Shown here: positions 489 to 59,300 of the stretch, piece by piece
Numbering within the stretch: position 1 is the first letter of the stretch
How the letters are laid out: each line of letters starts with the position of its first letter
NCBI RefSeq assembly: GCF_000003815.2
Contig: NC_049993.1
Span: forward strand, 3,951,460 to 4,015,459
Reading direction: 5' to 3'
Length of the DNA: 64,000 nt
Source of the DNA: Branchiostoma floridae
Taxonomy: Eukaryota > Chordata > Leptocardii > Amphioxiformes > Branchiostomatidae
The notes under the pieces: model-generated
Told to the model about the DNA's origin: nothing
The model's input: the letters and a program-made list of their open reading frames with translations, nothing else
Databases searched by the model: none
Program-made: the position numbers and the translations under genes

Positions 489-861
489 TTCCCAAAGCAC
501 TCCAATGGAGGCTCGAGACTTAATTGAGCTGCAGACATCAATGGGTATGTGTTCTGTGAAGTGATCTGAAGATACGGCGTGCGTTGGCGTTAAAAGAAGT
601 TTGAATAGCTTTTGAAGTTAAAACAATTTTTTATTGAAGAACTATAACCTTTCCCAGGCAATCTTCTTAGCAGCTTAAATGTCTCATAATGTAATATGAT
701 GTTAACATACTTAATAAGTCTGGACACGCCTTGATAGCCTGTCTTATTTTTCTTGTCCGGGCTGAAGCTGGTTTTACAGCCTGAAATCTGTCACTTTGAG
801 CACCAAATTATCAGTTGCTGAGTTTTATTCCCTTCAAAAGAAGAACATTTTAAGAAAAAAT

Positions 862-3800
862 ATGCAGACGGTGAATGAGAAAACTATCTGCGCTGTACCA
901 CGCCTTAACAACGCAGACTGTGAGCCAGAACCTGCGGACTGTGTTGGGACTCATGCCGAGGTGCCTCTCACTATGAACTCTGATCAGGATAGCAACCAGA
1001 CCGATGTTGCAGGGGCAGAAACTCCCATTTCAAATCTGTACGAAGACGCTATGAATGCTGAACAACGAGAAGGGGAAGATGTAGCTCAAGAAAGCTCAAC
1101 GTCGGTTTCAAGCATCTACGAAGACACAGCAAAGAAAGCGGCCGAACCAATGTCAGGGATTTACGTATGTGGAGATTCCGGGGTTTCGTCACGGCTTTAC
1201 GAGAACTCAGAAAAAACGAACAAATCTACTGACGGTAAGGAGTCAGACTCTGTGATTTACCAGGCAGACGGAGTGTTACCTGGTACCATACATGAATCTT
1301 CTCCAAATCAACCAGCAGGTAGGTTCTATAAATTTTGAAAGAGAAATAAATAAGTTAAATGAAGAAGATATTTTATGAAATTCTGAATAAGATGCCTTAT
1401 AAACTGATATCTTTCAAAAACAAACCAAGACAATATTTACAGAATGAGTGAAGGGGGTTAAAAAAAATAGCGTATCGGTGTCCACTTTACCCTAATTTAA
1501 CCCTAAACATTCAACATCTCTACGACTGAAATGACCGAACACAGGCCAAAACCTTTTTTGGGATCATTGTAAATTCTCTGTCAAATAACAGTCAATGCGT
1601 TTTATCACATTTAGATGTGCATCATTCCTGCCCGTTATTATGAATTATGCAAAAAGACCCTTTTTTGCACTGAAGGGAACAGCCGCTGCGACAATTAAAT
1701 TACAATGCTTCAAAAAAACACTACCAGGATCCACTAAATAATGACTTTACATACAATCACCCCTGGGTCCAAAATTGAATTTCCAAAATTCAAATCCAAA
1801 ATTCACCCTGCGAGAACGGACCGTTTTAGTGGTCTGCTTTAACGAATAAACTTACAATTTAACGAATAAACTTACAATTCATTTGTAAGGTTAAATGTAG
1901 AGAATAATGAAACCGCACGCATCGCTTCTACCCGCATTACAGTAAGCTATCCCCATGACCCGTATTGACCTCGCGAGCGCCATGCTGAAATTTCGGGCCG
2001 TCAAAACACAAGCCGAAAAGGCCATCTTCTACCGTGATTTCCCGACAATTATCATTGAAAATCGATGTTGCTACACTTTTGAAAATGACGTGGTCGTCTT
2101 CGGCAATATTTTTATCGCATGCGTTTTGTTGTCGTTCTTATTTTCACCTTTGTGGTTTGGAGAATGTCCCTACTCGACCGGCTGACTCCCCTAGCGTACT
2201 GTATTTACTCTATTTGACCAATTTCTACAATTAGACCACCAAACCACGAAGCCTGGTAGAGGCTAGGATAGTTGACTTGTTTCTGATATATTCATACAGA
2301 GACCCGTTTTTAATTGTATTAGTCCGCAACTGTCATGATATGGTAATTAATAATGAAAAAACGTTTTTTGTGAATATTGTAATTCATTGAATTTGTTTTT
2401 CTGCATACTATAACATCTATTATCATAATACCGGTACGTTTACGACGATTTCTCTAGCCATATTGATTTGACAAATTGTCAACGCATCATTTTCTCCAGT
2501 TACATGTTGCTGTTATAGGGTACCCTTGCCACTTCTTCTGTGTAACTTTTCTGCCACTCTTGTCCTGCTAAAAGCGTAATATTGTAATTGTAACACGCCG
2601 CGGAATTACACGGCGAACGGGCGCGTGGTTGGGAGGGGGTACAAAATACCGGTAGGAAGAAACACGGCACAATTAACTGCCGCTATGTACATTTATACAT
2701 CCTCTGATGTTCCTTCCTTTTCTGTCAGTAAATGCATAAAACATAAACCTGCATGAGCATACAAAATGTCATGAGAAAACGGAAGTATACTGCCAAGAAT
2801 TTTCATTTAACTTCTGTCCGTCACAACCGCTATGACGTAACACTTCACTGCTAGCGTAGATATAAAAATGGCGGGAAAATGGCTGCGTACGTTCAATTTT
2901 GCCCATTCAGTCGTAGATCCGGGCTATTATGCAACGGTTCTTCACACTTTTACATGAGTTGTAGGTCACCAACAGAAATTCAAGATTGTTGTTGAATCAT
3001 GTTCGTCTTGTGCCGTGAGCATGTGTAGTTATGATCTATATAAATTTGGCAATGAATGTGACAGTGTGTTCGTCCCACGACGAGCTGCCTACCCCGAAAT
3101 TTAAAAAAAAGTATACTGAAAACTTTTGGCCTTGTTGTCTTCGAATGCATTGTTATCGATGCTTTGTAAATGGTGTATTGGACACCTAGATGTCTGAAGT
3201 GTGCACAGCTCAGAAATAACTATTGTTGCATGTGTAGATCTCTTTAAGTTCCAGTATTTTTAATCTACCGGTATAAGTCTTACTACCGGTATTATGCCAA
3301 TGCATGTTAGTAGTTTGTAAATTACGGCACAATTCAGTTTTTACTGCAATGCAGTTTGTCTATGTTTTTGTTAATAAACCAATTACTACTTCTACTACTA
3401 CTACTTCTGTTGCTGATTCAAAAAGAAAACCAATAATACTCATACAAGTAAGTTTATTACACCATCAGAGCTTCATGCAGCAAAAAAATGGTTTGAGTCA
3501 TTCTTAACTGTATGTATGTCTTTGAACCTGTAACTAATTGATGGAAAGAATTTGACTGAACTATCAAGGAGGATCTCGATAATGAAAACTAATCTATAAT
3601 CCGTTCTAGGAACAATGAATCAAGATTCCTCAGAAGATTCCAAGAATGACACGGACACTCTTCGCCCAGATGGCCAGGAGAAAAGATCAAAGGGCCACCG
3701 ACACGCATGCGCAGTTGTAAAAGAGGGCATGGACACCCCTGCATATGAGAGCGTGACTGAAGGAGGAAGTCAAGGTTCCTTTGTTTATCAAAATTTCCAT

Positions 3801-14715: not shown

Positions 14716-17406
14716 AAACACTACATGTTTAGGAGTTTGATTCTAGGACATCTAAGTAAACTCCTTATCCAAACGGATAGCCAGAGTTGTAAATCATTTA
14801 GGTGTAGCAAATGTACAGACTGAATGGGTAAAGTTAGGGAACTGAGGGCAACTCTACAACAGATGTCATATCATGACAAAATCCCCTGGGCTTGAACTTA
14901 CTAATAGACAGAAAACTCCTACAGTCGCCAAACTACCGCCACTGTTTTCGCCTGACGCCATGGAAACACTTGGTAAACACACCGTATACTACCACAAAAT
15001 AGTTGTAATGCAAGTTTTTGCAAATTAAGTAAATAAAAAAAAGATGCCCGGACACCAGTTATTCTAGAGAGACATAGTACTCTAGGAATTTTAATACCAA
15101 TAATGATTTCAAAAATGAGTTTAGAACAATAAGATGGACATGGTTACAATTTGAATTAATATGTCTTATTGTGCAATGATATGGTACTGTTCTATCATAC
15201 TTCACTTACTGTACTACAATCATGTTTTACTACACGAAACAACCCAATTCAGACATTCATTGCAATGGTTGCCTGCAAAGCAGTTCAATTTGTAAATATT
15301 AGATAAACTGCTGATTGCTTTATAGATTAATTAGAGACATTGGTGTGCACAAAAAGGTACAGTAACATACTAGACATTTTCAGAAGAAGAACCGAATGTG
15401 TTATAAAGTAGTTGTCATGAACAATGCATACTTCACCAGCAATTAGTGCAAAGTCAACCGTCTGTCTATTAAAACGAAAATGTAAGTAGATTTCGATGTT
15501 AATTAAGATAGTTAACTCATGGCTTTACAGCACGTTTTTTCGCAAGTTGTGATGAATTTTCAACGATTTAGCAATACACACCGATATGTCAATATGAAAA
15601 AATGTATTGGTGGGAATTTCTAACAATAAACCACATGTAAAACTTTTATGAGGACTAGTTTTAAAAGAACGATGTAGTATTTAAATAATGCTTTTATATA
15701 ACGCATGGCATGATTAAGACATCCAGTAGTAGCCTAAGAGGTTGTTGCCTATCTGTATTATGCTGCATATAGAAAAAAATATGTCATAATCTGAAGTGAA
15801 TACAACACCGCATTTGTCTTATGAACATTTGAGAATAAACCATCTCACAGTTCCATGTGTACATATGCTGTGGTGGTGATTAAGTTCTAAATCTTCTTCT
15901 TCTAGAAACATCAGAACTTAGCAAGTTTTATCTGTTATTAAAAGCTAGGTGGACGAACAATTTTTTTAAACCCAATATTCTTCGTAACCTTGTTTCTTGT
16001 TTGCAAACATAACACTTTTAGCAAGTTATGAGTATGAAAAGTTGAATAGTCTGATGTTGTCTGGTAGAAACGTATTGTGTGAGGTTCGGCCGGACTAACC
16101 TCTCAAAACTCATGACCACAGCATGTTTCAGAACTTGAAATATAAACCCCACTATTTGCAGTACCGTAACAAGCTGCTAGGGGTCCAAAATCTACTCCTT
16201 TCTGGGTCTCATCAAGACCTACCCACATACTAAATATCTATACAGTCCATCTACACGTTCTTGAGTTATGTTGGTCACACAAACATACACACAAACGCTG
16301 CCAAAATATAACCTTCTTGGCGAAGGTAACTACAATACGTTAATAATGGTACCCAACTTATCACTGGGAAAGACCGTGTGCGATAATTTTTTTACACTTC
16401 CCTTGATTGATTCGGCAATATACATAATGGAACCAATTGAATTGAAGTAATATCCGTCTATTGTAGGTAGCCACTGAAATGACTTTCAAACTTTTCATCA
16501 TTTCATCAGAAACTTTTTCCCCAGATAAAAAAAAACATAATTACATGACGTTGACAGCTGTAGTTTGAAAATGAACGTACTATGCATATTCAGGTAACCT
16601 TTATATGAATGACGCAGGTAAAACAGGGAAACATAATCATTCATCAATTTTTTTAGCAAGTCGCTGGTCTCGCATCATTTTCCCCAGGCACCGGTTGAAG
16701 GACGGTAGATCATCCTAGACAACGATTTTTTTGCGTTGTCGCTGTCATACACTTGGAAAGATAGGACATTCAGCAGTCTCCCTATTTCATAGTAGGACAT
16801 GCAGCAAAACGTACAGCTATGATCGTAGTATCCATGACGTGCCAAAAGGCCTCAGCAAAGAAGGTAGAGTAATTTTATTATTTCTCCACTCCTATAGTCT
16901 CATAGAATATTCTTACTTTAGGATATCAAGCCCCATGCAACTAAGGATCACTAAGCCACTAAGTTTCCACAATTACAACTCACCGCGGAACTTTCATAGC
17001 TCTAACATCTGTGCGTAGTTCCCCCTTGAAATAAAACGTATTTTGAGCAGGGAGAGTTAAAATTGATATTGATTTTTAAAATTGATTCTGGAAATCACTT
17101 CTTAAAATATGTAGACCACCAGAGAACCCGGTAGCTAATAAAATCTATGGATCCATAACAAAGCCTAATTATAAAACACTACCAATTAGAATGGTTGACT
17201 TTTAGATTTTAAACTTATCCATTTCTCAATTGAGCCCGAATACCACACATTTTCGAAAAAAAACAGAAAAATGTATTCATATTTGGTATAGAGATTACGT
17301 TATCAATGAGGAGCAAAATGCATTCAGCTGATGATATCTTGTCGTGAATGCTTCCAGAGATGTAGACCGAATATACCCCCTGCAGGTGAGTCATAATAAA
17401 TTGTCG
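14716..17406. other. Intergenic spacer
   Basis: No gene seen. At about 16,240-16,332 lies a repeat-like block (CGTTCTTGAGTTATGTTGG, an ACACAAACATACACACAAAC run, then a small AACCTTC/GAAGGT hairpin). It matches in layout the 3' module of the repeat family at 45.7-48.4 kb. Open frames at 16,268-16,450 and 16,731-17,018 have no supporting signals. Confidence 0.45.
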
Positions 17407-17414
17407 TATAAAAG
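17407..17414 (+). promoter_or_regulatory. TATA box of the LRR gene
   Basis: TATAAAAG, 45 bp before the chosen ATG at 17,459. Transcription would then start near 17,437-17,442 and give a very short leader. It matches the canonical TATA consensus, and no splice acceptor is needed for this intronless gene. Confidence 0.6.
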
Positions 17415-17458
17415 GTTTATATGTAAACAGACATGAATGTTTGTTAGAGAACGCAGCC

Positions 17459-20400
17459 ATGTTGATTTTGCTTCTCTTGGCAGCTGTCTGCTCAGCTTCA
17501 AATAGCCAGAGCTTACCTCCGTGTAGGTTAGCTGCATGGCTAGAGTGTGTGTCTGTCACAGAAAAGCCAGGAATTTCATTCGATGTGAATTCTGGCCCAC
17601 ATATATGTGCCATTTGTGAGGTTCAAGACAAGAGTGTTGCCTCCACAAGTCCTCTCCCTTTCCTTTCTAGGGTCGGATATGTTGCAATAAGAGGATATCC
17701 TTTCCGTGTCCTTTCAGCAACGATCCTGAAACCCCTCAAGCATTTTGAGGTTAACATATTGGCATTGGTAGATGCTAAGATCACTGATGTGGAGAACAAC
17801 ACCTTCGCTGGGTTTTACCGTCTTCAGCAGTTGTCGCTAGATTCTAACGAGCTAACACATGTCAAACAGGGCTGGCTTGTAGGTCTAGAGAATCTCTTGA
17901 CGCTGATTCTGTCCAACAACCACATCAAGAAAATATATCCAGGGAGCTTTGCGAACCTAGCTCGCCTGATCAACCTGAATCTACAGAAGAACCTGTTACA
18001 CGCTGTAGACCCTGGCTGGTTAACTGGACTAACATTTACCAGAGTCATAAACCTGGGGTTTAATAAAATCAGCAGTATTTTCCCAGGATCATTCAAACAC
18101 CTTCCGCTGACCTGGTTAGACCTTAGGTGTAACGATCTGTCGTCATTGGATGGCGATGTAATTTTGGGACAGTCTTCTCCACCAAAACTCCATGTCAGCA
18201 GTGGTATGCTGTCATCTATTCATGATGAAAAGCCACATAGAATGATGTGGAGCCTAAGTAGGTGGGCAGATATGACGAAAGGATTATCATCAGCAACGTT
18301 GGTTGTTAGGGTGCCCAAGTTCCACTTCTGTGTCGAGCAGTACCAAAGCCCTTTGTACGACAGAGCATTCGATAAAGTCTTGTTTCAGTGGAAGTCTGCT
18401 GTCAATCGTAGCACATCATGTAGTAGTTTGGGCCGTACCATCTCCATAGAGGCTCCGGTAGTTGTCTTGGCTACTGACTTTTCTATGGAGGACAAAGTTC
18501 TCCCCAACACGCTTGACCAGTACAGACAGGTTTGGGGATACGATGGGGGTATTTCTGTACCAGTTGGCCCAGTGGGAAGTCCGGCCTTCCGACTGGTTTC
18601 CATGGCTACAGGCAATACGAGTTTTGAAGGCGTCGCCATGTCAGTCATTGACACAAAAGACAGACACAAACCTTCCACTACAGTGTCCGGATGCAGTGAA
18701 AACGATACCAACCATACAAACACCACGCATGGCAATACAGAGAATGTAACCTGCATTTTGCTCACTAAAAATGAACACATCAAGTTGTTCTTCACCGTTG
18801 CCCCGGTCCAATGCCAGCCACACACAACATCAACCAATTACAGAACAAACACTTACCAGACCACGAGCTCGACAAACTACTCTGAGTACACAGAACAAGA
18901 CCACACATCTTTAGAACCTGGAGACAACTCTACACAGCAGATGAGTACCACACCAGGACCAGATGTACCCACAGCAACAGATCATGTTCTCATCTCAGTT
19001 GTTGTCTTGGCAGTGGCCATTCTGGTAGTGTTGGTCCTCCTAGTGTTGGTATGGAAGTTGTACACATCAGGTTTTTGCGCTAAGGACAATAGGGCCAGCA
19101 ACGATGCACACTTTTGGACAATCCCATCTAGCGTTGCCTTCCCCGGCTTGCTGAGGTCGGCTTCCTTCCCTGGCATTTCAAGGAATACCATGTTGGATGA
19201 TGCAGCCTCCTGTAGGTCATTGCCCACTGTCCTTCATTCCATCGAACCTACTTACAGTGAGATTCCTGATGACATAGCAGCTGCTCAGAGGCCTTTGCCT
19301 GGTCTCCTTCACACATATTGGGAGATTCCAGATAACATAGCGGCTGCTCAGAGGCCTTTACCTGGTCTCCCCCACACATACTGGGAGATTCCAGATGCCG
19401 GCATGGTACGGTCAGTTTCTCTCCCTATAGTAAGGTGTATCCACGAGGACACCCGAGGCAGTGCTGCATTACGTAGGTCCTTACCCACGATCTCCCATCA
19501 CCTAGCCAATGCACAGCGTCCTCTGTCTGCCCCATCACACACTTACAGTGAGATACCAGATGATGAGGAGAGCGGACCCGTGCCTTACTATACTGATACT
19601 GCAGATTTTTCACGTCATCATGTTGTCACAAACAGGAGACAGAATCGACGGGCTTGCTCAGATAGCAACACAACGTCCAGCCGACACCTATCTGTAAGAT
19701 TCCTTGCCTCATATGGGTCAAATGAACAGGCTAGAGCCCAGTTAAGCAACATCTACAGAAAGCCTCCAGAGGTCGAGCCCGTAAGAGCCCGTAGACAGCT
19801 GGGGGCAGCTTCTGTGTCCCTGCCTGCTGACCAAGGTTTAGTTACGTACGTCAACGTCACAGATGCTATTCTATCCAGAGGTCAAAATGTCACGGAAGCT
19901 CATTCAGCCTTCCTCACATTGCCTAATGTTGACTGGACTTGGCAGATATTCAGTGAGGGAACACCTTACACACAACGGGATGTGTCCCCTCATGTCGTCA
20001 CACTGCCTAGCACCTACTGGCCATGTGGGATTTCAGGGGAGGGAACCCGTATAACAGGACGTCGCACGTCACTACCTCTCGTCACAGTGCCTAACACTTA
20101 CATGCCATGTGGGATTTCAGGGGAGGGGATCCGTAATACATCGCGGCGCACGTCCCCTCCTCCCGTCACACTGCCTGACACTTATGTGCCATGTGAGATT
20201 TCAGGGGAGGGAACCCGTTTAACAGGACGGCGCACGTCCCTACCTCTCGTCACAGTGGCTAACACCTATGTCCCATGTGAGGTATCAGGGGAGGGAGCCC
20301 GTATAACACCACGGCGTGCGTCCCTTCCTCCCGTCACACTACCTGACACCTACGTGACATGTGAGATTTCAGGGGAGAGAATTCGTGTAGCATCACGGCG

Positions 20401-20668
20401 TGCGTCCCTTCCTGTAGTCACACTGCCTAACACCTCTGTGGCATGTGAGGTTTCATGTGAGAGAACCCATGTAACTCCACATTGTACGTCCCTTTCCACA
20501 CAGCCTAACACCTACTGGCCATGGCATATTCAAGGGCAAAGAACTTATGTAACAGGGTGGCTTACAGTGCCTAACACCTACATGCCATGTGAGATACCTG
20601 GGGAGAGAACCCGAATGACACCCACATTTACATCAGTGGACACATATTGGCCATGGGGTATTCCATAG
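17459..20668 (+). CDS. Leucine-rich-repeat transmembrane protein with long repetitive phosphosite tail
   Basis: Single exon, 1069 aa from ATG 17,459, the first Met before a hydrophobic leader (MLILLLLAAVCSA, signal peptide ~1-16). Residues ~92-235 hold about six LRRs (LxxLxLxxNxL). QGW/PGW-type and PGSF-type repeats alternate. A Cys-containing, N-glycosylation-rich stalk follows. One membrane span lies at ~510-532, then a 536-residue cytoplasmic tail. The tail has three YSEIPD/YWEIPD motifs on a 21-residue period plus a fourth YSEIPD (19,250-19,560), RSASFP and RSVSLP sites, and 28-residue repeats (20,012-20,667) each carrying RR(T/A)S. The LRR ectodomain suggests ligand recognition at the surface. 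The tail has no enzyme or TIR domain and looks like a scaffold for phospho-dependent partners. I do not recognise an ortholog. Confidence 0.85.
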   Translation: MLILLLLAAVCSASNSQSLPPCRLAAWLECVSVTEKPGISFDVNSGPHICAICEVQDKSVASTSPLPFLSRVGYVAIRGYPFRVLSATILKPLKHFEVNILALVDAKITDVENNTFAGFYRLQQLSLDSNELTHVKQGWLVGLENLLTLILSNNHIKKIYPGSFANLARLINLNLQKNLLHAVDPGWLTGLTFTRVINLGFNKISSIFPGSFKHLPLTWLDLRCNDLSSLDGDVILGQSSPPKLHVSSGMLSSIHDEKPHRMMWSLSRWADMTKGLSSATLVVRVPKFHFCVEQYQSPLYDRAFDKVLFQWKSAVNRSTSCSSLGRTISIEAPVVVLATDFSMEDKVLPNTLDQYRQVWGYDGGISVPVGPVGSPAFRLVSMATGNTSFEGVAMSVIDTKDRHKPSTTVSGCSENDTNHTNTTHGNTENVTCILLTKNEHIKLFFTVAPVQCQPHTTSTNYRTNTYQTTSSTNYSEYTEQDHTSLEPGDNSTQQMSTTPGPDVPTATDHVLISVVVLAVAILVVLVLLVLVWKLYTSGFCAKDNRASNDAHFWTIPSSVAFPGLLRSASFPGISRNTMLDDAASCRSLPTVLHSIEPTYSEIPDDIAAAQRPLPGLLHTYWEIPDNIAAAQRPLPGLPHTYWEIPDAGMVRSVSLPIVRCIHEDTRGSAALRRSLPTISHHLANAQRPLSAPSHTYSEIPDDEESGPVPYYTDTADFSRHHVVTNRRQNRRACSDSNTTSSRHLSVRFLASYGSNEQARAQLSNIYRKPPEVEPVRARRQLGAASVSLPADQGLVTYVNVTDAILSRGQNVTEAHSAFLTLPNVDWTWQIFSEGTPYTQRDVSPHVVTLPSTYWPCGISGEGTRITGRRTSLPLVTVPNTYMPCGISGEGIRNTSRRTSPPPVTLPDTYVPCEISGEGTRLTGRRTSLPLVTVANTYVPCEVSGEGARITPRRASLPPVTLPDTYVTCEISGERIRVASRRASLPVVTLPNTSVACEVSCERTHVTPHCTSLSTQPNTYWPWHIQGQRTYVTGWLTVPNTYMPCEIPGERTRMTPTFTSVDTYWPWGIP
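20012..20667 (+). repeat. In-frame 84-bp tandem repeats in the LRR protein tail
   Basis: Units start at 20,012, 20,096, 20,180, 20,264 and 20,348, each 28 codons, followed by 3-4 shorter decayed units. Each unit reads TY(W/M/V)PC(G/E)(I/V)SGEG...RR(T/A)S(L/P)P...VT(L/V)P(N/D). Period and frame are exact over the first five. Confidence 0.9.
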
Positions 20669-31586: not shown

Positions 31587-34500
31587 TTAGTATTTTTCGC
31601 CATGGGTGGTTTGCAGACTAGTATAGGTGTTCTCATCCAGACTCGCCAGGTCAATGTAGTCCTGAGAAAGTGATACAAATGGCAAAATGTCAGTCACATG
31701 AAAGATGCTAGCACTCCACTTAATATTAGATGATGACTGGTTGCAGTCAATCATTCTGTGCTACTGATCATATAACGACTGATATTACCACAGTTAATGT
31801 AAAATACAAATTTTAAACCATTTTATAAAAAAAATTCTTATAGACGGTTATATACTGCAATTGTACTGCATATGGATGACACTCTGGACTCACGTGTTCT
31901 GCCTCCATCAGTGTATCCAGACTTTGCTGGATCTTGCGGAACTCTGGTCTCCGGGCAGGGTCAGCATTCCAACAGTTGAGCATCAGGGTGTAGCTAGTAC
32001 ACAAATGTCATCGAGTAAGAATTCTCATACCGAGACTTACTAGAAAACAAGGATTTCTGGCGTTGTTGTACTTTGTGCAAGCAAGTGTTGTTCTTTGTAC
32101 TGTTCAGTTCGTCTTACTATTATGAGCGATGCGTTACAAAAGTGGTCTTGAAAAGTATCTTGTTTCACGAACTCTCAACAACATTAGTCATTATTAGAGG
32201 AAGCCGAATGCTTCAAGCATTTAATTCTCTTTTACGACCACGATGATATCCTTACATGGCCATTTTTGTTTTAGCATAAGAAGGAAGACATTTTGACTCA
32301 CAGTTCTTCATCGCAGTGGTGCGGTTTGCCCATCCTGTATCCCTGCTGCACTCCGTCCATCACTTCACGTTTGGACATACCGGGGTACGGAGTCGCACCT
32401 AAGCAGAATACATGATAGGCATTATAAATCTCGTTTTTTTACGAACGTTTATGAAATCATAGACAAGAGAACTTATCATCATCACAAACATCAAAAAAGT
32501 TCAAGTAATTTTGATAAGATTGTTATGGTTACAATGTTTTAGATGGGCGTATGCAGTCACGCTAGTGGTTAAGATATGATTGTAGTTATGATTGGTTGTT
32601 TTCTATGAGAATCATTAAAAAAAGATTGAAATATTTAACGGAACGGAATGAAAAAGAATGTACCAAGGTGCGAAAGGAACGAAGTGAAATATGAAGCAAA
32701 CTGAAAAAGAAACGATGTAAATATAAGAAAACGTATCGACTGTCCAAAGCTGTCGGTAACAAATGCGGATCGTGAGAGAATAATTCAGCCGCGCAAACAC
32801 AGCAACGTTTTAAAATTTTTATCCTGCCTCATTTGAGGTAAAATTCTGAAACGAAAACACGTTATATCCATTCAACATTCACTCCTTCATTGTAATCCTT
32901 CCACATTACCGGTTCCTTAGGACCCCACAGATTTTACTTCATTTTGCTGTATAATTCTCTCCATCTTTTCTATTTCGTGCTTGCTGTACACCAGTGTCAC
33001 GCACAAAATATATGAACCCACCCAAAGTGACGATCTCCCAGAGCAGCACTCCGAAAGCCCAGACGTCAGTCTTGGTGGTGTACTTCCGATGGAATAGCGA
33101 CTCGAGGGCCATCCAGCGGATAGGCAGGCGGGTCTGTGCGGGACAGATGGTTGTATACTAGAGTACGATATTTGCATACTATTCACCAACGGCAATGATT
33201 ACAGAGTTATAGACAACATATTCATGCCTGTACTCCCTCTGCAGCACCTGCGGCCGTTTCTGTGCTTGCAGAATAGGATTTCACTCCCACATGAGGAGAC
33301 ATCTCAGGAATTGACTGTTCGTCTACTCATCCGTCGACATGGACAGAAGAATCCATCATCGTCACTGTCATACGATATTGTGATTTATTGAGATTGCAAA
33401 CGATACAATACACGTGGGACACAGGCAGCGGTATGCTGGTGTCGTGGCCCACACATGAATACATACGATAACAGATGCTGATCTGCTGGTTAAATACAGA
33501 CAGGTACCTACTGCACTGCAGATAATATAAAATCCTTGGCTGTCCGTTTTTCGTAACTACAGTACCAGTTATTCTCTGGATGTAATTAATGCATAAACAC
33601 CTTGGTAGTGCTCTCGTACTCATCCCCCTCTCGCGAGAAGCCAAAGTCTGACACCTTACAGGTCCGGTCTGCAGTAACTAGCACGTTCCGGGTTGCAAGG
33701 TCACGATGGATGATCTAATATTGTGAAAATTTAAAATCAAAACAAATAATAACTAGAACGAAATGTCACTTCATCTGTATGGTAAGTGTCTTCTGATCCA
33801 GTCAAGGAAAAAAAACAGTAAAAACTGATTTCATGTCGCCAAGTTGGCTTTAATCGTTTATCGTGCCATCTTATCTCTGGAACCTTAGTGGGACAACGTA
33901 ACAAAGAAGTCGATATCACCAGCCGTCGTTGTTTAGATTCAGATTCAGGCTTTGATACAGCCAATGTAATCAAAGTAAGTTACTTCTACGAGGTTTCCAC
34001 TCACTTTCTTTGCTGCCAGAAAACTCATCCCCTTGGCTACGTCCCAGGCAAACTTGGTGAGGTCACGTGAGGAGAGAGACTTGCTCCCGCCGTGCAGGTT
34101 CCCGTATGGTTGGTGAGTGCGGCTGGTACGGAGGTTGGACAGGAGACTGCCTCCAGACACGAACTCCAGCAGGAGATACAACGGCTCTAGAAAAGGTATC
34201 AATACATATAAATGAATATAACATAGCCTGTTAAACGTCCCTGAGAGGGTTTGGAATGATATCTGCGATATTTTTTTAATCATATTGAATGATATTTAAT
34301 CCAAATAGTTCTAAGTTTAAGAAAAATATAGTATTTGGATCTATCTGATTCCTTTAAGCTTTTGAAAACGTTTAAAAAGTGACCGGACCAAGTTTCTTTA
34401 TTTGATAATTTTGTAATCTATGTGACTATGTCACTTTACGAAGTATTTTTTTACCAATATTTGAAACAATTTGTTTTATTTGCTCATAAAAGCCGCATAT

Positions 34501-37500
34501 CGCCCGCCTCTACATATTTTATCAATGACTTTCTGCTTGTTAGGCAGTCCTGACTTTATGCCTTATTATCATATAGCCAGGCGCCGCGGACCAATCAGAA
34601 GGCCCCGTTCCACGTTGGTTATGACGCCGTAACACTTAGATTCCGGCCAGGCCGGTGTGTATCCTCCTTCTGATTGGTCAGAATGAATCGACACCGTGAC
34701 TGGAGGCGATTTAGATCGGCCTGCGTACCAGGGAGAAAGCAATTGAACACCGGTGCTGGCACTGGTGCCGGTGTCGATTCATTCTGACCAACCAGCCTGA
34801 GCGATACACACAAGATATGCAGGGTTTGGCCAATCAAAAGGAGCGAAACATATGCCAGAGCAGAGGGAATAAGCACAAACTGTAAGGAGGGAGTAGTTAA
34901 CATTGAGAATGAGTTTTGTTGTTCTAAAAAGCGAAAGACTGCAATGTTTTGAATATTTTCTGTGGAAATTTTGGTTTCAAACTGCATTCTGTAAACAAAT
35001 GTATGTACCAAGGAACAGATGTGAACTTTCAGAAATTCGACAAAGAAATTGACGCGTATAGTACCAAGGGATCTATGCGTCATACAGTAGTTTGCAAGTT
35101 TGGGTAGGCTATATGATAATAACGTTAATAACCCGCCTGTTCCTAGGTGTACATGGTGTCATATCGACTGGTCCTTTGCTATAACCACCTCATAAAACCA
35201 CCGAGTGAGCCAAGCGAACGAGGTGGTTTTATTCGGTGGTTATAGCAAAGGACCAGGCGTTATGACACCATATACACCTCGGGGCGGGTCATTAACCCTT
35301 AATTACAGGTGTACAAATAAACCAAAGAGTCAAGGATTTGTTTTTATCAAATACATGCAGCTTGCTTTTTCTTACAACTACGATGTGCAGTTTGTTTCTT
35401 AAATGAGGGCAGAAGACTAACCTGTTTCCGTGCAACGTCCAAGAAATGAAACAACGTTAGGATGAGTCCCAAGGAGCTTCAGTATTGACAGCTCCTTGAA
35501 AAACGCAGTCAAAGCCGCGGGACTTGTCATACCTAGTAAGCAATAAGAAATCATTTGCATAAATGAACTGTTATCGCTCAATGGCATTGGGATATTCATG
35601 TGTAGAAATTGAATATTTCACACATAAATTGAATATATCACACATCTTATGTATTTGTTGTGCTTTGTAAAGTCCGAGAGTGCTAGCTTCAACACAACAT
35701 AATTAAGAACTAAATTATTTTTTTTTTAGATTAGAATTCCTTTATATTTAGTATTCCAAGCACCTTTCAACTCCTTCACTGCCACAGTAGTTACACCAGT
35801 GTTGCCTGATATTTTCCAGGCCTCGGCTCTATAGACAGTCCCAAATTCTCCTTGGCCAATTTCCTCGTTGATGTCCAGCTGACTTCGCGGGAATTCAGAT
35901 GGCAACTTCAAATCCTCATAGGTTACTTCTGGTGCTCTCTGTATCAAAAGAAAGGTTTCTCGACTCGTCTTGTTAGTGTATAAACAAGCGTTAAAAATAT
36001 ATAACGAATACGCATTGCAAAATATGGAAACATGTAGGAAAGCCGTAGGAAAGCATGTTTCGTTAAAAAGAAGCTTGTTAAGAGTTGAAGAAAAAATGTC
36101 ATACTTCGTTCTCACTGCGTGCCGTCAGCCCCTGGTACGTGTGATTAGACTGTTTAAAAAAAAAACAGAAAATATTATAAGTACATTGGTATTCTTTACT
36201 AGAAGCCTGGAAAACATTTACTGTAAGCAAATTTGATAGACCAATGCTGAAATATATCACATGTACAATGCATAACATCATATACAGAGTAAGGTCGAAT
36301 ACATAAGCTTTTATGTTGCATGTTATTAAATTTTATAACTACTTTGCACATTTATTTGCTTTACTTACTGTGCGCCTATGAGATATCTGCAAACTTTGGT
36401 ACTCGTCTTCCGTATCATGGCGCTAGAAGAAAGTCGTAAACAATCGTGTTCAATTCTTTAGGTTATAAATTGAGAAAAAAAAATCTTTGTTCAGCTGGTA
36501 AATGTTGCATATCAACAGTTGTATTATTTCAAGAAGAAAGCATGAAAAGATGCAAATGATAAGACGAAGTGGTGGCGAGCTTGTATTGAACATATATTAA
36601 AGATAGTTGAAGAATGGAAAGATAAAATATTTGACAAGACCATTTGTAAATGCATCTGGTAAGTGAATATACTAAGAAATACATGAATGTTTGCCATTTT
36701 CGTGTGAACTCAAACAACATTCCAGCAGAAAACAAAGCAAAAAAATTACCTATGTAACTAAAAGCTTTTTATTTCTGATAAATAATCTGCGGATGACATA
36801 AATTTACAAGTAGTTATAAGGACCATATAAAGGTGGGCATTTGCAGAAAAAAAATACAGAAGTTATGAACTGCTCACCACATTCTCCAGCTCCATGTTGC
36901 TTGAGTGGTTTCCCTCGTGTTTTTCTGAAATAGCGATCATCGATATGTACTTATTCAGACATAAAGTTTGACGATATGTACGTGCTTTAATCTATATAAT
37001 ATCTTAAGTTTAGAAATTATTTTACACTTACCATTGGCTGCCCTCTTTCTCCTAACGAACACCACTGCAACTGTGACGATAGCCAAGAGGACCACGGCAC
37101 ATATTGTTGCTGCTATAATGATGGTGTTGGTGTCATTTCCACCTATAGTAATGGACCAACGAAAAATCTCTCTCACAAATCATGTTTCCTATTGATTTCA
37201 AAACAAATTTTGAGCAATATCAGAAATGGTATTAAAAGTAACGTTTTTAAGTAAGCTACTAAGTAAAATGTATATTACTATGATCGGGGCATTGGGTTTT
37301 TTAATGCGTTTTATGCCTGGATTTTTTAGTGCCTTTAATATCATTTATTGATTAGATCTTTCAAACAGAAAGAAATTCAAGCATTATGGAAATAGATGCT
37401 GCCTGTTTTGTTATACATTGTTGCTGGCTATACAGCAAAAATATCGAAAATTTGTATGCCTTGTAAGTGTATGTTTGTTAAAAGGTGAACATGTACCTTC

Positions 37501-40500
37501 CTTTGTTGTGTTGACATTGATCACATCAATAATCACTACAGCTGTAGTATCTCTGTAAAGAACAATCAGTAACGGACGTCACATTTAGAATATCAGAGTT
37601 TGTTAAAACTATTCTAATGATAACAGATGTGATATTATCAACACAAGATTATGCTACCGAAATAATTTGTCCGTAAACACTGTATCTACAGTGTAATTAT
37701 TGCGTGTGAATGATATACACATCAATGTGTAAAACTATTTTATTACAATCATTCCAATTGCTGCTTTTTGCTAGGCTGTATTGAAAATGAATTCCACAAG
37801 GTCACCTGGAAGCAGTCCCTTGATCAGCGGCCATGACCACCACAACATAAGACCCCACAGTGTTGGCATCCAGCCTCCCTGATACAGTGATGTTTCCATC
37901 TGTGCTGATGGAAAACTTGTCCTTCCCATTTTCGGATGCAAACATGATGCCGTATCTGATCTCACCATTGGAACCAGAGTCTGGGTCTGTTGCAACCACC
38001 TGTAACCAGGTAGAAATCGTTTCATTGTTTCAATCTGAATGATAAGATGGGCTCTTAATGTGCTGAATGTTAATGAAGGTTAGACATCCAGGTAATAAGT
38101 TACACCAAAAAGCAATTACTCAAGCAACTAGATATGATTTTGGAAACGGTCAGACCTTTCAAACAACATCCAAAGTACATGTAGTCTTTACATTTTTAAA
38201 AAGTATCAATTTTTGTTTGCTTTCTTCTTAAGGAGGTAAGACTCATTTGAAATGTGAGGAATCATTTGATAATTTAGATTTTTCTAAAGTAATGTTCTGC
38301 ATGCTGAAAACACGATCAGTTTCGTTTAAACCCAGTTGATGATGTAAAATATATCCTTTTGTATCCAAAAAAAGTGTTAAAATGTCAGCAACGTTTACCT
38401 GTGTCACGACAGCTCCATTTGCTGCATCCTGTGCCACATTTGCATGGTAGGTTTCGGCGGTAAATGTTGGATTGTTGTCGTTCTCATCCAACAGTGTGAT
38501 GAGAACAATGGATGTAGGGCTGCGGTACTTCTCTGTTGTGTTTGTTTCAACCGCATAAACCTAGAAATCATACGACATTGTTAGTTCTGTTTGCAACCAA
38601 ATAGTTATATTAGTCATTACCATCCCTGGTCAAAGGAGTAGGGAATTGGGAGAATTTTACTACCTCCACAAATCTACTGCTGCATAAACATTTTCATCGT
38701 ATTATAAATTTTAACGACAAATTTTACACTTATCTTACAAAGATTCGTTGAACGCTGTAGTTACTGTCAAATTGTTCTTGATGTAAAATGAAATTATTGA
38801 CATGCAAAACTTAGCACCAATTGTTTGCTACCACAACAATAAATTTCAGATTTCGTTGTATCACAGAGGATCACAACCACATGTTGTCATAATGAATGTT
38901 TTGTTTACCTGCAGTGTGAAATTGCTGTTTATCTCCCTGTCCAGGATACTGTTGTTGCTGACAGTGACTTGACCGGTCGTGCCATCAATGGTAAAGGCAT
39001 CGGAAGGAACCAGCACATACATGAATACTGCATTGCCTCCCTGGAAATGTTAAACGTATTTCACACTATTAAAAAAAGATATGACAGTTGTCATTAAATA
39101 TGCTTACTATCTCAATGAAAATTGGAGATTTTGCTTCTGGTGTGCCTGTCTCTGGGTGTCTGCGATGTGTGTGTGTGTGTGTGTGTGCGTGTGTGTGTGT
39201 GCGGAATGCCATGTTATTCTATATGCAGGTAGCCTAGACAAAATGCGCAATATGACTCAATTTGCATCATTAATGAGGATAGTTTGTCATTGTAGTATTC
39301 TCTATTCAATGACTTTACTACATGTAACGTATGCACTTTTTGACAGGTGAAACCTCAACAAAAAGCAAAACGGCGTCATTTGTATAATCAATGTAAAATG
39401 TATTATTGTTTCAAAACGCTTACTGCAAAGGAACAAGACTACTCATCGTATGATAGATAAGATATACTTCCTCATACCTCATCCTTGTCTGACGCTGTGA
39501 CAGTGAGTACAGGAGAACCAATGGGGGTATTCTCCATCGCTGTTGCCTGGTACTGGCTGGCAGACATCTGTGGTCGGTTGTCATTGGCGTCTTGAACAAC
39601 GATGTACACACGAGCCTCTGCTGATCTGACATTGCTGTCCGACTGTTCTGCCTAATTTAGCAATTATGAAAAATATGAGATAAGTATTTTTTTGCTTGTT
39701 TTTGTCTACGTTTGTCAGCAGATCGCTGTATCTAAAAAGTAGTTAATAGGTATCCAAGTATTTAAATGTGAATGTGATTGGTAACTATGCTGAGTCCATA
39801 TCATGTTACAAATCTATGTATTCTAATATCTGATTTTCTAATGTGTTTATGGATACCTAGTACCATTGCATTTTGCTTCTTTGGCCCCTTTTTACTTGAG
39901 ACACCACTACAACACAGAACAATTTGTTTCATGTAATAGAAAATATTAAGGATAATGCGTTCACTAACGCCCAATATCCAAATGAAATCCATGTATTCTA
40001 AAAATTTTGTTCCTTCTTGTTTTTAATTTTAAGATCAAGATCATTAACCATAATATATACCATTGTTCGTTTACCTTGATGGTGAGTGTGACATCATGTA
40101 CTGCCTCCCTGTCCAGTCCTCTAACCAAAGACAGCTCTCCTGTTGAACTATCGATGCTGAAATAGTCCAACAAGTCTGCTAGGTCGGTTGGTATTGCGGA
40201 GGCTGCAATTTGGATTTTAAACGACAGCATTGTTATAGATATTCCTTCAGGTTGACTATGCTTATATTTGATTTAATTGTTTTCCATTTGATGTAACCGT
40301 CATTAGAGGTGATATCAATAGTGATATATAGATAATTAAAATATAGAATGCTCTTTGATCATAACTCTTAAAAACACAGACCTCCAATTTCTTTTTATTT
40401 CTGCTCAATACATCTTGATCACGGAATGACCTAGTCTCGCGAATCGTGATCTTGCGTGGTTTGTTCATTTCTTTACTTCTTCTATAATTTGCAAAATGAT

Positions 40501-53340: not shown

Positions 53341-56300
53341 TTAGTATTTTTCGTCAGAGGCGGTTTGCAGACTGGTATAGGTGTTATCATCCAGACTCGC
53401 CAGGTCGATGTAGTCCTGAGAAAATGAGATAATGTCAGTCACAGGAAAAATGCTAGCACTCCCCTTAAATTATGATATTGACTGATGGCTGAAAAACGCT
53501 ATGCTAGTTGGTTGCTGTTAATTAAGGTTGCAGTCAATCCTTTTGATCGTCGTTGGGTAAGTTTTTCTTCTGTGCTACTGATATTATCACTGCTGAGGTA
53601 AACTACCTTCTACTGAACCATTTTATGAAGAACGATTCTTATAGACGGTTATATACTGCAATAACACCACACGTGAATGAGGCTTTGGACTCACGTGTTC
53701 AGCCTCCATCAGTGTATCCACAGTCTGCTGAATCTTGCGGAACTCTGGTCTCTGGGCAGGGTCAGCATTCCAACAGTTCAGCATCAGGGTGTAGCTACGC
53801 AAATGTAATCATTTATTAATTTTAATTAAATTCTAATTCTTTTCTCTCGAAAGACGTATTTCCGTATAAAACAAGAGTTCGGAGATCTCATGCCTGAATA
53901 AAATAGTATGATTATGCAAATGACTTGCACATCTACATAATGTATGCCTGGTTATGTACACAGACGGTCTAGAGTTATACTGACCACAAATATGCGGAAA
54001 CACAGACAGACACAGAGACACACCAAAAACTATACCTCATATTCATGGAGGTAACAAGGTGTTGTCCCTTGTGCAAGCAAGTGTTGTACTTTGTGCTGTG
54101 CACTTCGTCTTATGAGCGATGCGTTTACAAAAGTGGTCTTGACATGTAATTTTGTTTCTTCAATGACACCCATTATCCTAAAGACTGCACGAACTCTCGA
54201 CTACATTAGTCGTAGTCAGAGGGACGCTGAATGATTCAAACATTTATTTCTCTCTAACAACCATGATGGTGACTAGCCTGGTATCCAATCGTATTATAGC
54301 TCCCGAGTCTCTTCTGTCCTTTTCCAAAGAGACTCGAGAGCTATAATACGGTTGGATACCAGGCTAGATGATGACATTGCACGACCATTTTGGTTTCAGT
54401 ATAAGAAGAAAGACATTTTGACTCACAGTTCGTCGTCACAGTGGCGCGGTTTGACCATCCTGTATCCCTGCTGCACCCCGTCCATCACTTCACGTTTGGA
54501 CATACCGGGGTACGGAGTCGCACCTAAGCAGAATACATGATAGGCATTATAAATTCCCTCTTTTACGAAGTTCAACGTTGATAGAATCATAGACAACAAA
54601 ACTTATCGACATCACAAACATCAACGGATCAGTAACGTCACGTAAGTAACTTTGATAGGCTTTTTATGGTTTAAATGTTAAAAATGGGCGTAGATAGTTA
54701 TACTTGTGGTTTGAGTATAATTCTACTTATGATTAGCTTCCTCATTACAGTAAATGGTGTATAGAAAGTGTGAAATGGAATGGAACAGAATGGAATGTAC
54801 AGAAAGTGCGAAATAGAACGAAATATAAAGCAGACTGAAATAGAACCGATGGACATATAAAGAAGCGTATTGACTTTCCAAAGTCGTCGGTAACAATTAC
54901 GGATCTTGGGAAAATAATTCAGCCATGCAAAAAAAAAGCTCTAAAAATTAAATCTTGCCTCAGTCTGAGCAAAATTCTAAAAAAAAACATTTTTTTTCAT
55001 CTATTGCCCACTTCTGAATTGTAATCCTTCCGCAGTATGGGCTCCCTATCATTCCTTCGATTTTATTTCAGTTTGCTTCATAAAACGTTTTATTTTGTTC
55101 TATTTCGTGCTTTGTGTACACCCCGGACACCCTGTTACGTAGATATCGTTTCAACCCACCCAGAGTGACTATCTCCCAGAGCAGCACTCCGAAAGCCCAG
55201 ACGTCCGTCTTGGTGGTGTACTTCCGGTGGAACAGCGACTCAGGGGCCATCCAGCGGATAGGCAGGCGGGTCTGTGGACAGATTATCATAACAATAACAA
55301 AATTGTATTTTAGTTGCATACTTTTCACCAACGGCAAAGATTGAAACGTTATGGTCCATATTCATGCCTGTATCATACGAAAACAGAGGCTGATCTTCTG
55401 GTTAAATGTAGACAGGTACCTATTGCACCACAGATAACATTAAAAGGCTGTCCGATCATGATAATTACAAAATTGCATCGAGTACGATATTTGCATACTA
55501 TTCATCAACGACAAGGATGAAAAAAGTTAGAGACCATGTTCAAGTCTGTACTGCCACTATCATACGATAATGGATGCTGATGTGCTGGCTAAATGTAGAC
55601 AGGTACCTACTACACAGCAGATAATATTAAATCCTCGGCTGTCTGTTTTTCGTAAGTACTAAATCAGTTATTCTCTGGCTGTAAGAAATGCATAAACACC
55701 TTGGTAGTGCTCTCGTACTCATCCCCCTCCCGCGAGAAGCCAAAGTCTGACACCTTACAGGTCCGGTCTGCAGTAACTAGCACATTCCGGGTTGCAAGGT
55801 CACGATGGATGATCTAATATTGTGAAAATTTAAAATCAAAACAAATAAGTGTCTTCTGATCCAGTCAAGGAAAAAAAACATTAAAAACTGATTTCAGGTC
55901 GCCAAGTTGGCTTTAATCGATTATCGTGCCATCTTATCTCTGGAACGTAACAGAGAAGTCGATATCACCAGCCGTCGTTGTTTAGATTCAGATTCAGGCT
56001 TTGATACAGCCTATGTAATCAAAGTAAGTTACATCTACGAGGTTTCCACTCACTTTCTTTGCTGCCAGAAAACTCATCCCCTTGGCTACGTCCCGGGCGA
56101 ACTTGGTGAGGTCACGTGAGGAGAGAGACTTGCTCCCGCCGTGCAGGTTCCCGTATGGTTGGTGAGTGCGGCTGGTACGGAGGTTGGACAGGAGACTGCC
56201 TCCAGACACGAACTCCAGCAGGAGATAAAACGGCTCTAGAAAAAGAACATGTATCAATACATGTACATGTATACAACAGATTTTATTCAAAGTCCCCTAA

Positions 56301-59300
56301 TTTTGAATTATATTAGATAATATCTAAACCACAATAGTTTTGAAATTTAATGATAATAATGAAAATGATATGAAATTTGAATTTCCTTGTATTTTAGTTC
56401 CTTGAATTTGAAAACGTGTGAAAGGTGACTGGACCAGATTTCTTTATTTGATGGTTCTATGATCAATGTGTGATTATGTCACATAACGAAATATTTACCG
56501 ATATTTAGAACAATTTCCAAATAGTATATATGTATTATATCCCCATAAAAGTCACATATTGCCAGCCTTTGTATATTCCATCAATAGCCTTCTGTTTGTT
56601 AGACAGCCCTTTCTGTATGTCTTATTACAGTTGAACAAATAGATTAAGAGTCAAGAGATTGTTGTTGTTGTTGTTTTTTCAAAAATACATACAATTTGTT
56701 TTGTTTTGTATAAACAGGATGTGCAGTATGTTTCTTCAATGAAGACTGAAGACTAACCTGTTTCCGTGCAACGTCCAAGAAACGACACAACGTTAGTATG
56801 AGTCCCAAGGAGCTTCAGTATTGACAGCTCCTTGAAAAAAGCAGTCAAAGCCGCGGAACTTGTCATACCTGGTAAGCAATAAGAAATTGTTAGCGAAATT
56901 GCATTGTTATCGCTCCATTTAAAAAAAAGGGAATATTCATGTTTTGGAATTAATATTTCACATATCCTATGTATTTGTTGATCTTTGTAAAGTCCGTTCG
57001 AGCTGGCTTGAAATTAAGAATGCCTTTTAGATTAGAATTTCTTAAAATAAGGATTCAAAGCACCTTTCAACTCCTTCACTGCCACGGTTGTTACACCTGT
57101 GTTGCCTGATATTTGCCAGGCTTCAGCTTTATAGACGGTCCCAAATTCTCCTTGGCCAAGTGCCTCTTTAATGTCCAGCTGACTTCGCGGGAATTCTGAC
57201 CGAGCCTTCACATCTTCGTAGATCACATCTGGTGTTCTCTGTATCGAAAGCAAGGTTTGTCAGAAAAAACACATTCGTCCTGTTAGTGTATAAACAAGCG
57301 TTGAAAATATATAACGAATACACATTGCAAAATATGGAAATATGTCCGTAGGAAAGCATGTTTCGTTAAAAAGAAGCTTGTTAAAAGTTGAAGAAAAAAC
57401 AATGCCATATTTCGTTTTTACTGCGTCTCGTCAAACCCTGGTACGTGTGAACAGACTGATGGAAAAAAAAAACACAAACAGAAAATGTTACAAGTGTATT
57501 AATTATTCTTTACAAGAAGCCCTGGAAAACATTCATCGTAAGAAAATTTGATAAAACGATGCTGAAATATATCATAATGCATTAGATTATATGCAAAGTA
57601 AGGTCATATACATACGCCTTTATGTTGCATGTTATTCAATTGTAATATAACTACGAGTCCTTTGCACATTTCGTTTGCTTAACTTACTGTTCGCCTATGA
57701 GATATCTGCAAACTTTGGTACTCGTCTTCCGTATCATTGCGCTAGAAGAAAGTCGTAAACAATCATATGTTCAATTCTTTAGGTTATAAATTGAAAAAAA
57801 ATCTTTGTCTGTTCAGCTGGTAAATGTTGCTAATAGACCATATCAACCGTTGTATTATTTCAAGAAGAAAGCATGGAAAGATACAAATGAAAAGACGAAG
57901 TGGCGGCGAGCTTGTATTGAACATATATTAAAGGTACTTGAAGAATGCAAAGTTGAAATATTGGACAAGACCATTTGAAAATACATCTGGTAAGTAAATA
58001 TACTAACAAATACATGAAGATTTGCCATTTTTCTGTAAGCTCAAGCAAAACAATGACATACTTCACTAAAAACTTATTATTTCTGTTAAATGTTCAGCGG
58101 CTGACATAAATGTACAAGTGATAATTTTACAAATTATTTATAACGACCATATAAAGGTGGGTATTTGCAAAACAAGATACAGAAGGCATTAATTGCTCAC
58201 CACATTCTCCAGCTCCATATTGCTTGAGTGATTTTCCTCAGGGTTTTCTGAAATGGAGATCATCAATATGTACTTATTCCGGAATGAAGTTTGATGGTAT
58301 GATATCACTTTAACTTGATATAATAAGTTCAGTTTAGAAATTATTTCACACGAACTTACCATTGGCTGCCCTCCTTCTTTTGAGCAACACCACTGCAGTA
58401 GTAATTATAGCCAGGACGACCACCACACATACTACTACTGCTATGATGATGGCATTGGTGTCGGTTCCACCTACAGTATATATGGGAAAAGTGATAGAAA
58501 GAACTCTCTCAAACAAAACATGTTTCCTGTTGAACCATACGTCAGGACCACTATGACCGTTGGCGTTTATAAGGCTCCGCATTGCATTAAGAAATTGAAA
58601 TTGAAATTTTATGAGAAACATGATTTGTCAAGAATTAGATATTCAATCATAGACAATTTAAGAAGCGGTATTAACGTTTTTCAGTTAGTTACAAAAGCAC
58701 ATTGTATACAGGGCATAAGGATTATTAATAATTGTTATATAATGTCAAGTTTCAGTAAGGAAGCAATAAGGTAATAGATGCCAACTGTTTGGCTAGTACG
58801 TTCTTGACTACAAGTCAAAAATGCTTTTACTCGAGCAACTGCATGACTTGTCTCTAAATGTACCTTCATTTGTTGAGTTGACATTGATCACATTGATGAT
58901 CACCACAGCTGTAGTCTCCCTGAAATGTGCAATCAGTAAAGGACTGGTCATTTACAAGATCAAAATGTCTTAAATTAAATCTATTCTTATAATAACAGTA
59001 GTTATATTATTAACGGGAGAATATGACACGGAACAGATTTGTCCATCAACACTGTACCTACTTTCTGTAAGCATTGCAGGTGCATGACATACATATAAAT
59101 GATTAAAACTGTTTCAATCCAATCTCTAAGTTGCTTCTTTCTGCTGTACTGTTTTGAAAATCAAATCCACACGGTCACCTGGAAGCGGTTCCTCGATCAG
59201 CGGCCATGATCACCAAAACATAAGAGTCCACAGTGTTGGCATCCAGCCTCCCTGATACAGTGATGTTTCCATCTGCACTGATGGTAAACTTGTCCTTCCC

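Follow-up and report, generated by a model that had tools for sequence, protein, structure and literature searches.

The window analysed here, a 64-kb stretch of lancelet DNA, encodes two predicted receptor tyrosine kinases, RTK-A and RTK-B, whose C-terminal tails each carry a pair of YxxL sequences, raising the question of whether a receptor can possess both a tyrosine kinase of its own and an ITAM. ITAMs are usually seen on receptors without their own kinase, which borrow one, although lack of a kinase is no part of the definition, and the spacing between the two halves is usually 6 to 8 residues. In the account given by an extract of PMC9731471, the motif consists of two YxxL sequences 6 to 12 residues apart. 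We favour the explanation that the family tail serves as a docking site of ITAM type and that the receptor phosphorylates itself, and place its probability at about 0.58 on the sequence evidence set out below.

Each gene was modelled as 11 predicted exons from transmembrane segment to tail, the two models giving 391 aligned residues in a single open frame (Table 1). The kinase domain was recognised by Pfam (PK_Tyr_Ser-Thr, 1.1e-90), and in both genes the sequence retains the glycine loop and DFG. Four of seven ectodomain fragments matched Pfam Cadherin, one of them above the curated cut-off (2.3e-12), and RET_CLD1 reached an E-value of only 0.084. The tail motif is placed in the cytoplasm by the transmembrane exon of the gene model and by the cadherin repeats upstream on the same strand. 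As the first-pass annotation had proposed, the spliced end of RTK-A reads as a full ITAM consensus (E-H-D-Y-I-D-L, seven residues, Y-T-S-L) and lies within the span first assigned to it. RTK-B keeps the motif, as had also been claimed, with one E-to-D change in the spacer; three further residues are changed behind the motif. In both genes the E at -3 of the first tyrosine arises only after splicing. The predicted junction between exon K7 and the tail is supported by two single-exon copies on contig C16, in which the kinase reads straight into LETLMEHEYDYIDLASFDETTYENL and LEALMGGGYINLASFDETTYANL.

Table 1 Predicted features of RTK-A and RTK-B in the window, and family copies elsewhere in the genome (contig:position).
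Feature	Position	Strand	Remarks
RTK-A last exon, core YIDL-x7-YTSL at 31658-31614	31587..31661	-	predicted; acceptor tttctcag, phase 0
RTK-A kinase exon K7, end LMEAEH then donor gtgagt	31894..31993	-	
RTK-A kinase exon K6	32302..32398	-	
RTK-A kinase exon K5	33022..33133	-	
RTK-A kinase exon K4, DFG and activation loop tyrosine	33601..33714	-	
RTK-A kinase exon K3	34005..34186	-	
RTK-A kinase exon K2	35422..35532	-	
RTK-A kinase exon K1, GQGEFG loop and AVK lysine	35764..35938	-	kinase domain = Pfam PF07714
RTK-A juxtamembrane exon JM2, single YQSL	36369..36422	-	
RTK-A juxtamembrane exon JM1 (predicted)	36878..36924	-	
RTK-A transmembrane exon	37032..37142	-	
RTK-A ectodomain, cadherin-repeat region, partial	37805..40248	-	Pfam Cadherin on fragments; exon borders and 5' end not placed
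RTK-B last exon, core at 53412-53368	53341..53415	-	
RTK-B kinase exons K7 to K1, seven exons in span	53695..57238	-	
RTK-B juxtamembrane exon JM2	57688..57741	-	
RTK-B juxtamembrane exon JM1 (predicted)	58201..58247	-	
RTK-B transmembrane exon	58360..58470	-	
C10 copy, five exon-like units, transmembrane to kinase	C10:3121669, 3122107, 3122709, 3123036, 3123402		
C10 copy, LamG/EGF ectodomain	L049 (C10:3117950-3127949) and L038		
Two single-exon receptor copies	L002 C16:16619170, L003 C16:16614139		opposite strands, ~4 kb apart

Judged by their sequences, RTK-A and RTK-B are recent tandem copies. Since their introns align too and kinase Ks is 0.14 (Ka 0.025), the agreement of the two motifs is weak evidence by itself, and its use as proof of conservation was dropped, the copies being too recent. 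The tails differ by five nonsynonymous and two synonymous changes over 24 codons, a length at which Ka/Ks is uninformative, and this ratio was likewise set aside. As a separate observation, synonymous divergence between the genes is 0.14 in the kinase vs 0.45 in the transmembrane-juxtamembrane part, a contrast that gene conversion across the kinase exons could have produced. Elsewhere in the window, on the plus strand, a 1,092-aa open frame (17390-20668) contains LRR_8 repeats (Pfam) and a transmembrane-like stretch, with a long further part bearing repeated TYSEIP/TYWEIP and YVNV tyrosine motifs; it may represent a tyrosine-signalling LRR receptor. A 190-aa open frame (766-1338, plus strand) has IYEDT and IYVCGD-like tyrosine motifs and no Pfam match, and resembles an exon for a cytoplasmic tail.

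In all six frames of the window, read unspliced, the bare pattern Y..[LI]-x6-8-Y..[LI] occurred 15 times; two occurrences are the RTK tails, and one of the other 13 has D/E at -3 (by eye). By itself, such a match would prove little. Shuffling the 29-residue tail yielded the strict form in 0.12% of cases, and in 3.5% with the first half held fixed. The motif is raised above chance by its conservation, with full matches in 13 of 14 family tails and 12 distinct tail sequences among the 14.

These tails were obtained by searching the genome (513,431,437 bases in 431 contigs) with a 90-residue last-exon query, which retrieved copies on C7, C10, C12, C16 and C17; counts from the genome searches are lower bounds, and more family copies may exist. 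The neighbouring 200 kb of C15 holds no further family copy at E 0.01 and one unrelated tyrosine kinase (L018). The 14 tails, all related copies of one genome lying on six contigs, comprise RTK-A, RTK-B, the two C16 copies and ten from 20 fetched stretches. The remaining ten stretches (L039-L048) hold other kinase ends or none, with no family tail, and stand outside the 14. Dozens of tyrosine kinase matches in open frames of ~900 aa were also seen in the genome, many of them clustered on C7, C8 and C12.

The first-pass annotation had asked whether the spacing and both leucines are conserved, and among the 14 tails both halves and the x7 spacing are found together in 13. The first tyrosine, its Leu at +3, the x7 spacing and the second tyrosine are kept throughout (14/14); the second Leu (+3) is replaced once, by Pro (YNNP) in the C10 copy. 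The second half is YTSL in nine tails, and YSSL, YTTL, YANL, YENL and YNNP in one each. Its +1/+2 positions vary, as do the spacer residues, yet the distance between the tyrosines is free of indels in every tail. At +2 of the first half, five tails have D, seven N (giving YINL), one S and one I. Several synonymous codons are used at the Leu and Tyr positions, the second Leu being written with five Leu codons. An acidic residue at -3 was counted by eye in 12 tails and is absent from L002 and L034. Among 10,626 four-column sets drawn from the tail, 55 (the anchors included) are as invariant as the four anchors, a descriptive figure given that the copies are related. Five family kinases compared share 61-94% identity with one another, and the ectodomains differ among copies, being of cadherin, Ig or LamG/EGF type.

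A particular tie to RET, implied when the motif was first described, was not borne out. Identity of the family kinase to RET and to FGFR1 is 42-46%, against 56% between those two, and the family kinase scores 268.5 and 265.7 phmmer bits against RET and FGFR1, respectively; other copies have Ig or LamG/EGF ectodomains. With identities and bits near equal, RET membership found no support, though a tie beyond the cadherin ectodomain may exist. The second tail tyrosine of RET lies outside any YxxL, and that of FGFR1-4 lacks Leu at +3 and lies one residue closer.

Tails of 13 other tyrosine kinases from the same genome (L001, L005-L008, L061, L062, L064-L066 and L071-L073, the last three by eye) gave no full ITAM match, in a control set that is weak, several tails being short or close relatives and introns not being excluded; L004, L018 and L063, incomplete or of uncertain frame, are outside the count. 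Two of the control tails, L072 (PYLDL-x7-YYKA) and L073 (PYLDL-x7-YYQG), lie outside the receptor family and lack the second Leu. On these sequences the first half and the second-tyrosine position extend beyond the receptor family, and the second Leu does not. Together with QEYLDLS of FGFR1, which stands in register, they suggest that the family inherited a YxDL-x7-Y tail and gained Leu afterwards; what is new may then be a single Leu and not the entire second half. The earlier proposal of an ancestral first half and a new second half is in part supported: the first half looks inherited, given FGFR1, and the second may be new in its Leu only, given YLDL-x7-Y without the second Leu outside the family. 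L072 and L073 count against the ITAM reading, as the spacing was possibly inherited for another reason.

YxxL sequences recur between membrane and kinase. YQSL was found in 7/7 juxtamembrane regions with the exon located (RTK-A, RTK-B, C10, L002, L003, L067 and L068), the stretch fetched for L069 ending short of this exon. It takes the forms EDEYQSL (RTK-A, RTK-B), DGGYQSL (L067), DDGYQSL (L068) and EDGYQSL (L002, L003). L003 continues into an x7 pair (YQSL-GRRSAHP-YQGL), and the L002 pair is spaced x11. L002 carries Ig domains, and L002 and L003 end in EERC and EEKC, vs DEKY. A match to the juxtamembrane query at C4:31340203 was dropped, no YxxL being seen there.

The C10 copy is the most elaborate in this region, with five exon-like units and perhaps a sixth containing GYQDL. 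Three units are intact pairs (YQGL-x7-YQSL, YQGI-x7-YQSL and YQSL-x7-YQSL); of the remaining two, one has lost the first tyrosine and the other the second. The units are predicted exons, some with GC or weak splice donors. A genome search with one unit returned the five units and no other place at E up to 10, a search of limited reach that missed the YQSL exons of RTK-A and RTK-B. Against PDB chains, neither the C10 repeat nor the tail alone gave a match at E up to 10, short queries having little power. Replacement of DFG by NFG would impair catalysis; the C10 kinase has NFG and is probably disabled, and its tail is the one without the second Leu. A seven-sequence kinase tree, with no third outgroup and a root for drawing only, leaves the position of C10 unresolved; the Leu was either lost or never gained in this copy.

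A search for a Syk-family tandem-SH2 protein, which the first-pass annotation had called for, located a Syk-type gene in the same genome. The ZAP-70 SH2 query led to C15:6243570 and 6245073, and the 9-kb region at C15:6243570 contains two SH2 domains and a kinase N-lobe. The SH2 pair matches ZAP-70 and SYK best (3e-40); the N-lobe matches SYK at 1e-24, ranked after a two-copy EGFR construct. Another candidate, spanning C12:9800640 to 9811587, reads as SH2, an ankyrin-like start (by eye), a second SH2 and a kinase. Its first SH2 is closest to ZAP-70, Pfam confirming the SH2 only, and for its kinase piece ACK1 ranks next behind the EGFR construct and ZAP-70 further down; the name Shark-type for this putative gene would rest mainly on domain order. 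SH2 exons resembling those of SHP2, PLC-gamma, RasGAP and p85 were also recognised in the genome, by eye with no database check, and such genes, as other tandem-SH2 partners, count against the ITAM reading.

The best-surviving alternative, which we nevertheless consider unlikely, is that the tail holds two independent SH2 sites, the first (YI[DN]L) for PLC-gamma or Grb2 and the second for SHP2 or another adaptor, the distance between them being meaningless. Grb2 specificity would suit YINL, present in half of the tails (7/14). The in-register QEYLDLS of FGFR1 and the SH2 exons just listed are compatible with such sites, as is the PLC-gamma site at Y1015 of the RET tail described in an extract of PMC7619074. 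Against independence, the tyrosines are separated by no indel in 14/14 tails though the spacer residues vary, and the first-half +2 residue shifts among D, N, S and I, which is also unfitting for a pure PLC-gamma YLDL-type site. Invariant spacing and anchors, a free second-half +1/+2 and a changing first-half +2 thus favour bivalent tandem-SH2 docking over separate sites, as does recurrence of the same x7 pair between membrane and kinase in L003 and C10.

It is rather improbable that the tail is a TIE2-like regulatory segment, lying on the kinase C-lobe and restraining it until the tyrosines relieve the restraint and dock adaptors. TIE2 chains align gapless over query residues 1-55 of 62 with both tyrosines in register, and the presence of this register in TIE2, no ITAM receptor, speaks against the ITAM reading. 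However, the tail alone finds no match at E up to 10, the TIE2 score probably coming from the kinase part, and among the 60 best chains listed against the entire kinase TIE2 does not appear. Very unlikely, in our judgement, is a sorting role, endocytic or basolateral, in which AP-2 type adaptors would recognise the sequences and these would not act as phosphotyrosine motifs. YIDL, YTSL and YQSL all fit the YxxPhi form of such signals; a sorting signal needs no partner at fixed spacing, yet x7 is kept in 14/14 tails and again in the C10 units. A functionless pair, matching by chance on an inherited FGFR/RET-type tail, would accord with the 3.5% of shuffles that are full once the first half is fixed and with the YLDL-x7-Y without Leu of L072 and L073, but is close to negligible given the second Leu in 13/14 copies through five Leu codons and the 0/13 full matches in the other kinase tails, many of them short or related.

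The ITAM-type docking site therefore remains our preferred reading, with exceptions of its own: C10 lacks the second Leu, and L002 and L034 lack the acidic -3. RTK-A and RTK-B would belong to an expanded receptor tyrosine kinase family with the paired YxxL in the tail of nearly all copies read and, in some, further pairs between membrane and kinase. The kinases would be brought together when the ectodomain, whether cadherin, Ig or LamG/EGF, clusters on a ligand or at a cell contact, and the receptor kinases, or Src-family kinases, would phosphorylate both tail tyrosines. A tandem-SH2 protein, in all likelihood the Syk-type or the Shark-type kinase, would then bind the doubly phosphorylated tail and start a Syk-type cascade beside the usual RTK output. 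Binding of Syk by the tail is what we infer from the motif. A Src-family kinase is also plausible as writer of the tail, since T-cell receptor phosphorylation in a human T-cell line was rescued in part by a Lck homologue from amphioxus, as described in PMC8211107.

More tentatively, and with more doubt than confidence, the copies may form a series from one tail ITAM (the window's cadherin copies and most of the tails read), through tail plus juxtamembrane pairs (the C16 copy), to C10 with its three juxtamembrane ITAMs, in a self-activating Syk-coupled family whose kinases write their own ITAMs. If so, C10, its tail ITAM degraded and its kinase probably disabled, would stand close to a classical ITAM receptor, and the family would be a living series from growth-factor-type receptors to immunoreceptors in which cadherin, Ig and LamG/EGF ectodomains were exchanged. 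The C10 copy would serve as a natural experiment on the fate of the motif once the kinase decays. A conserved ITAM on apparently active kinases, in a genome with a Syk-type kinase, would permit a direct test of the origin of Syk-coupled signalling, and of whether writing and presenting the ITAM can be combined in one receptor.

The combination claimed by the first-pass annotation, a receptor with both its own tyrosine kinase and an ITAM, is upheld as far as sequence can take it, with the kinase apparently intact and the consensus conserved in 13/14 tails. What would be new is the joining of a known motif to a known receptor class, conserved family-wide in one genome. An ITAM on a receptor tyrosine kinase was stated in none of the titles or abstract openings listed from an open-access library; an earlier description is possible.

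Among receptor tyrosine kinases, FGFR1 resembles the family in the QEYLDLS that follows its kinase in register with the first half of the motif. In TIE2 the tail holds two tyrosines in register with those of the family, the second in YAGI; TIE2 differs in that the first lies in YVNT and that its kinase is missing from the 60 best chains listed for the whole family kinase. The TIE2 ectodomain is of Ig/EGF/FNIII type. RET shares a cadherin-type ectodomain, and its own tail has the PLC-gamma site noted above (PMC7619074). Insect Cad96Ca/Stitcher, in an extract of PMC11908783, is a receptor tyrosine kinase named for cadherin.

Among immune-type receptors, CD3 zeta, FcR gamma and Megf10/Draper have, like the family, two YxxL seven residues apart in the cytoplasmic tail, and the lancelet genome encodes a Syk-type kinase to match. 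CD3 zeta carries three ITAMs in a row, as the C10 copy has three ITAM pairs in a row. The hemITAM is a single (D/E)(D/E)GYxxL, as in DEDGYxxL, and the family juxtamembrane YxxL resembles that of hemITAM receptors (CLEC-2, Dectin-1) in following acidic residues, several copies having Gly at -1; the likeness is one of sequence, and the YQSL of the RTK family differs in being followed by a kinase domain. A single YxxL is described for CLEC-2 in PMC9731471. According to an extract of PMC8092387, the kinase recruited by Draper is Shark and that recruited by Megf10, through an ITAM, is Syk; both receptors are phosphorylated by Src-family kinases, in which they differ from the self-phosphorylation envisaged here. 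Unlike all of these ITAM receptors and adaptors, the RTK family has its tail joined to its own tyrosine kinase.
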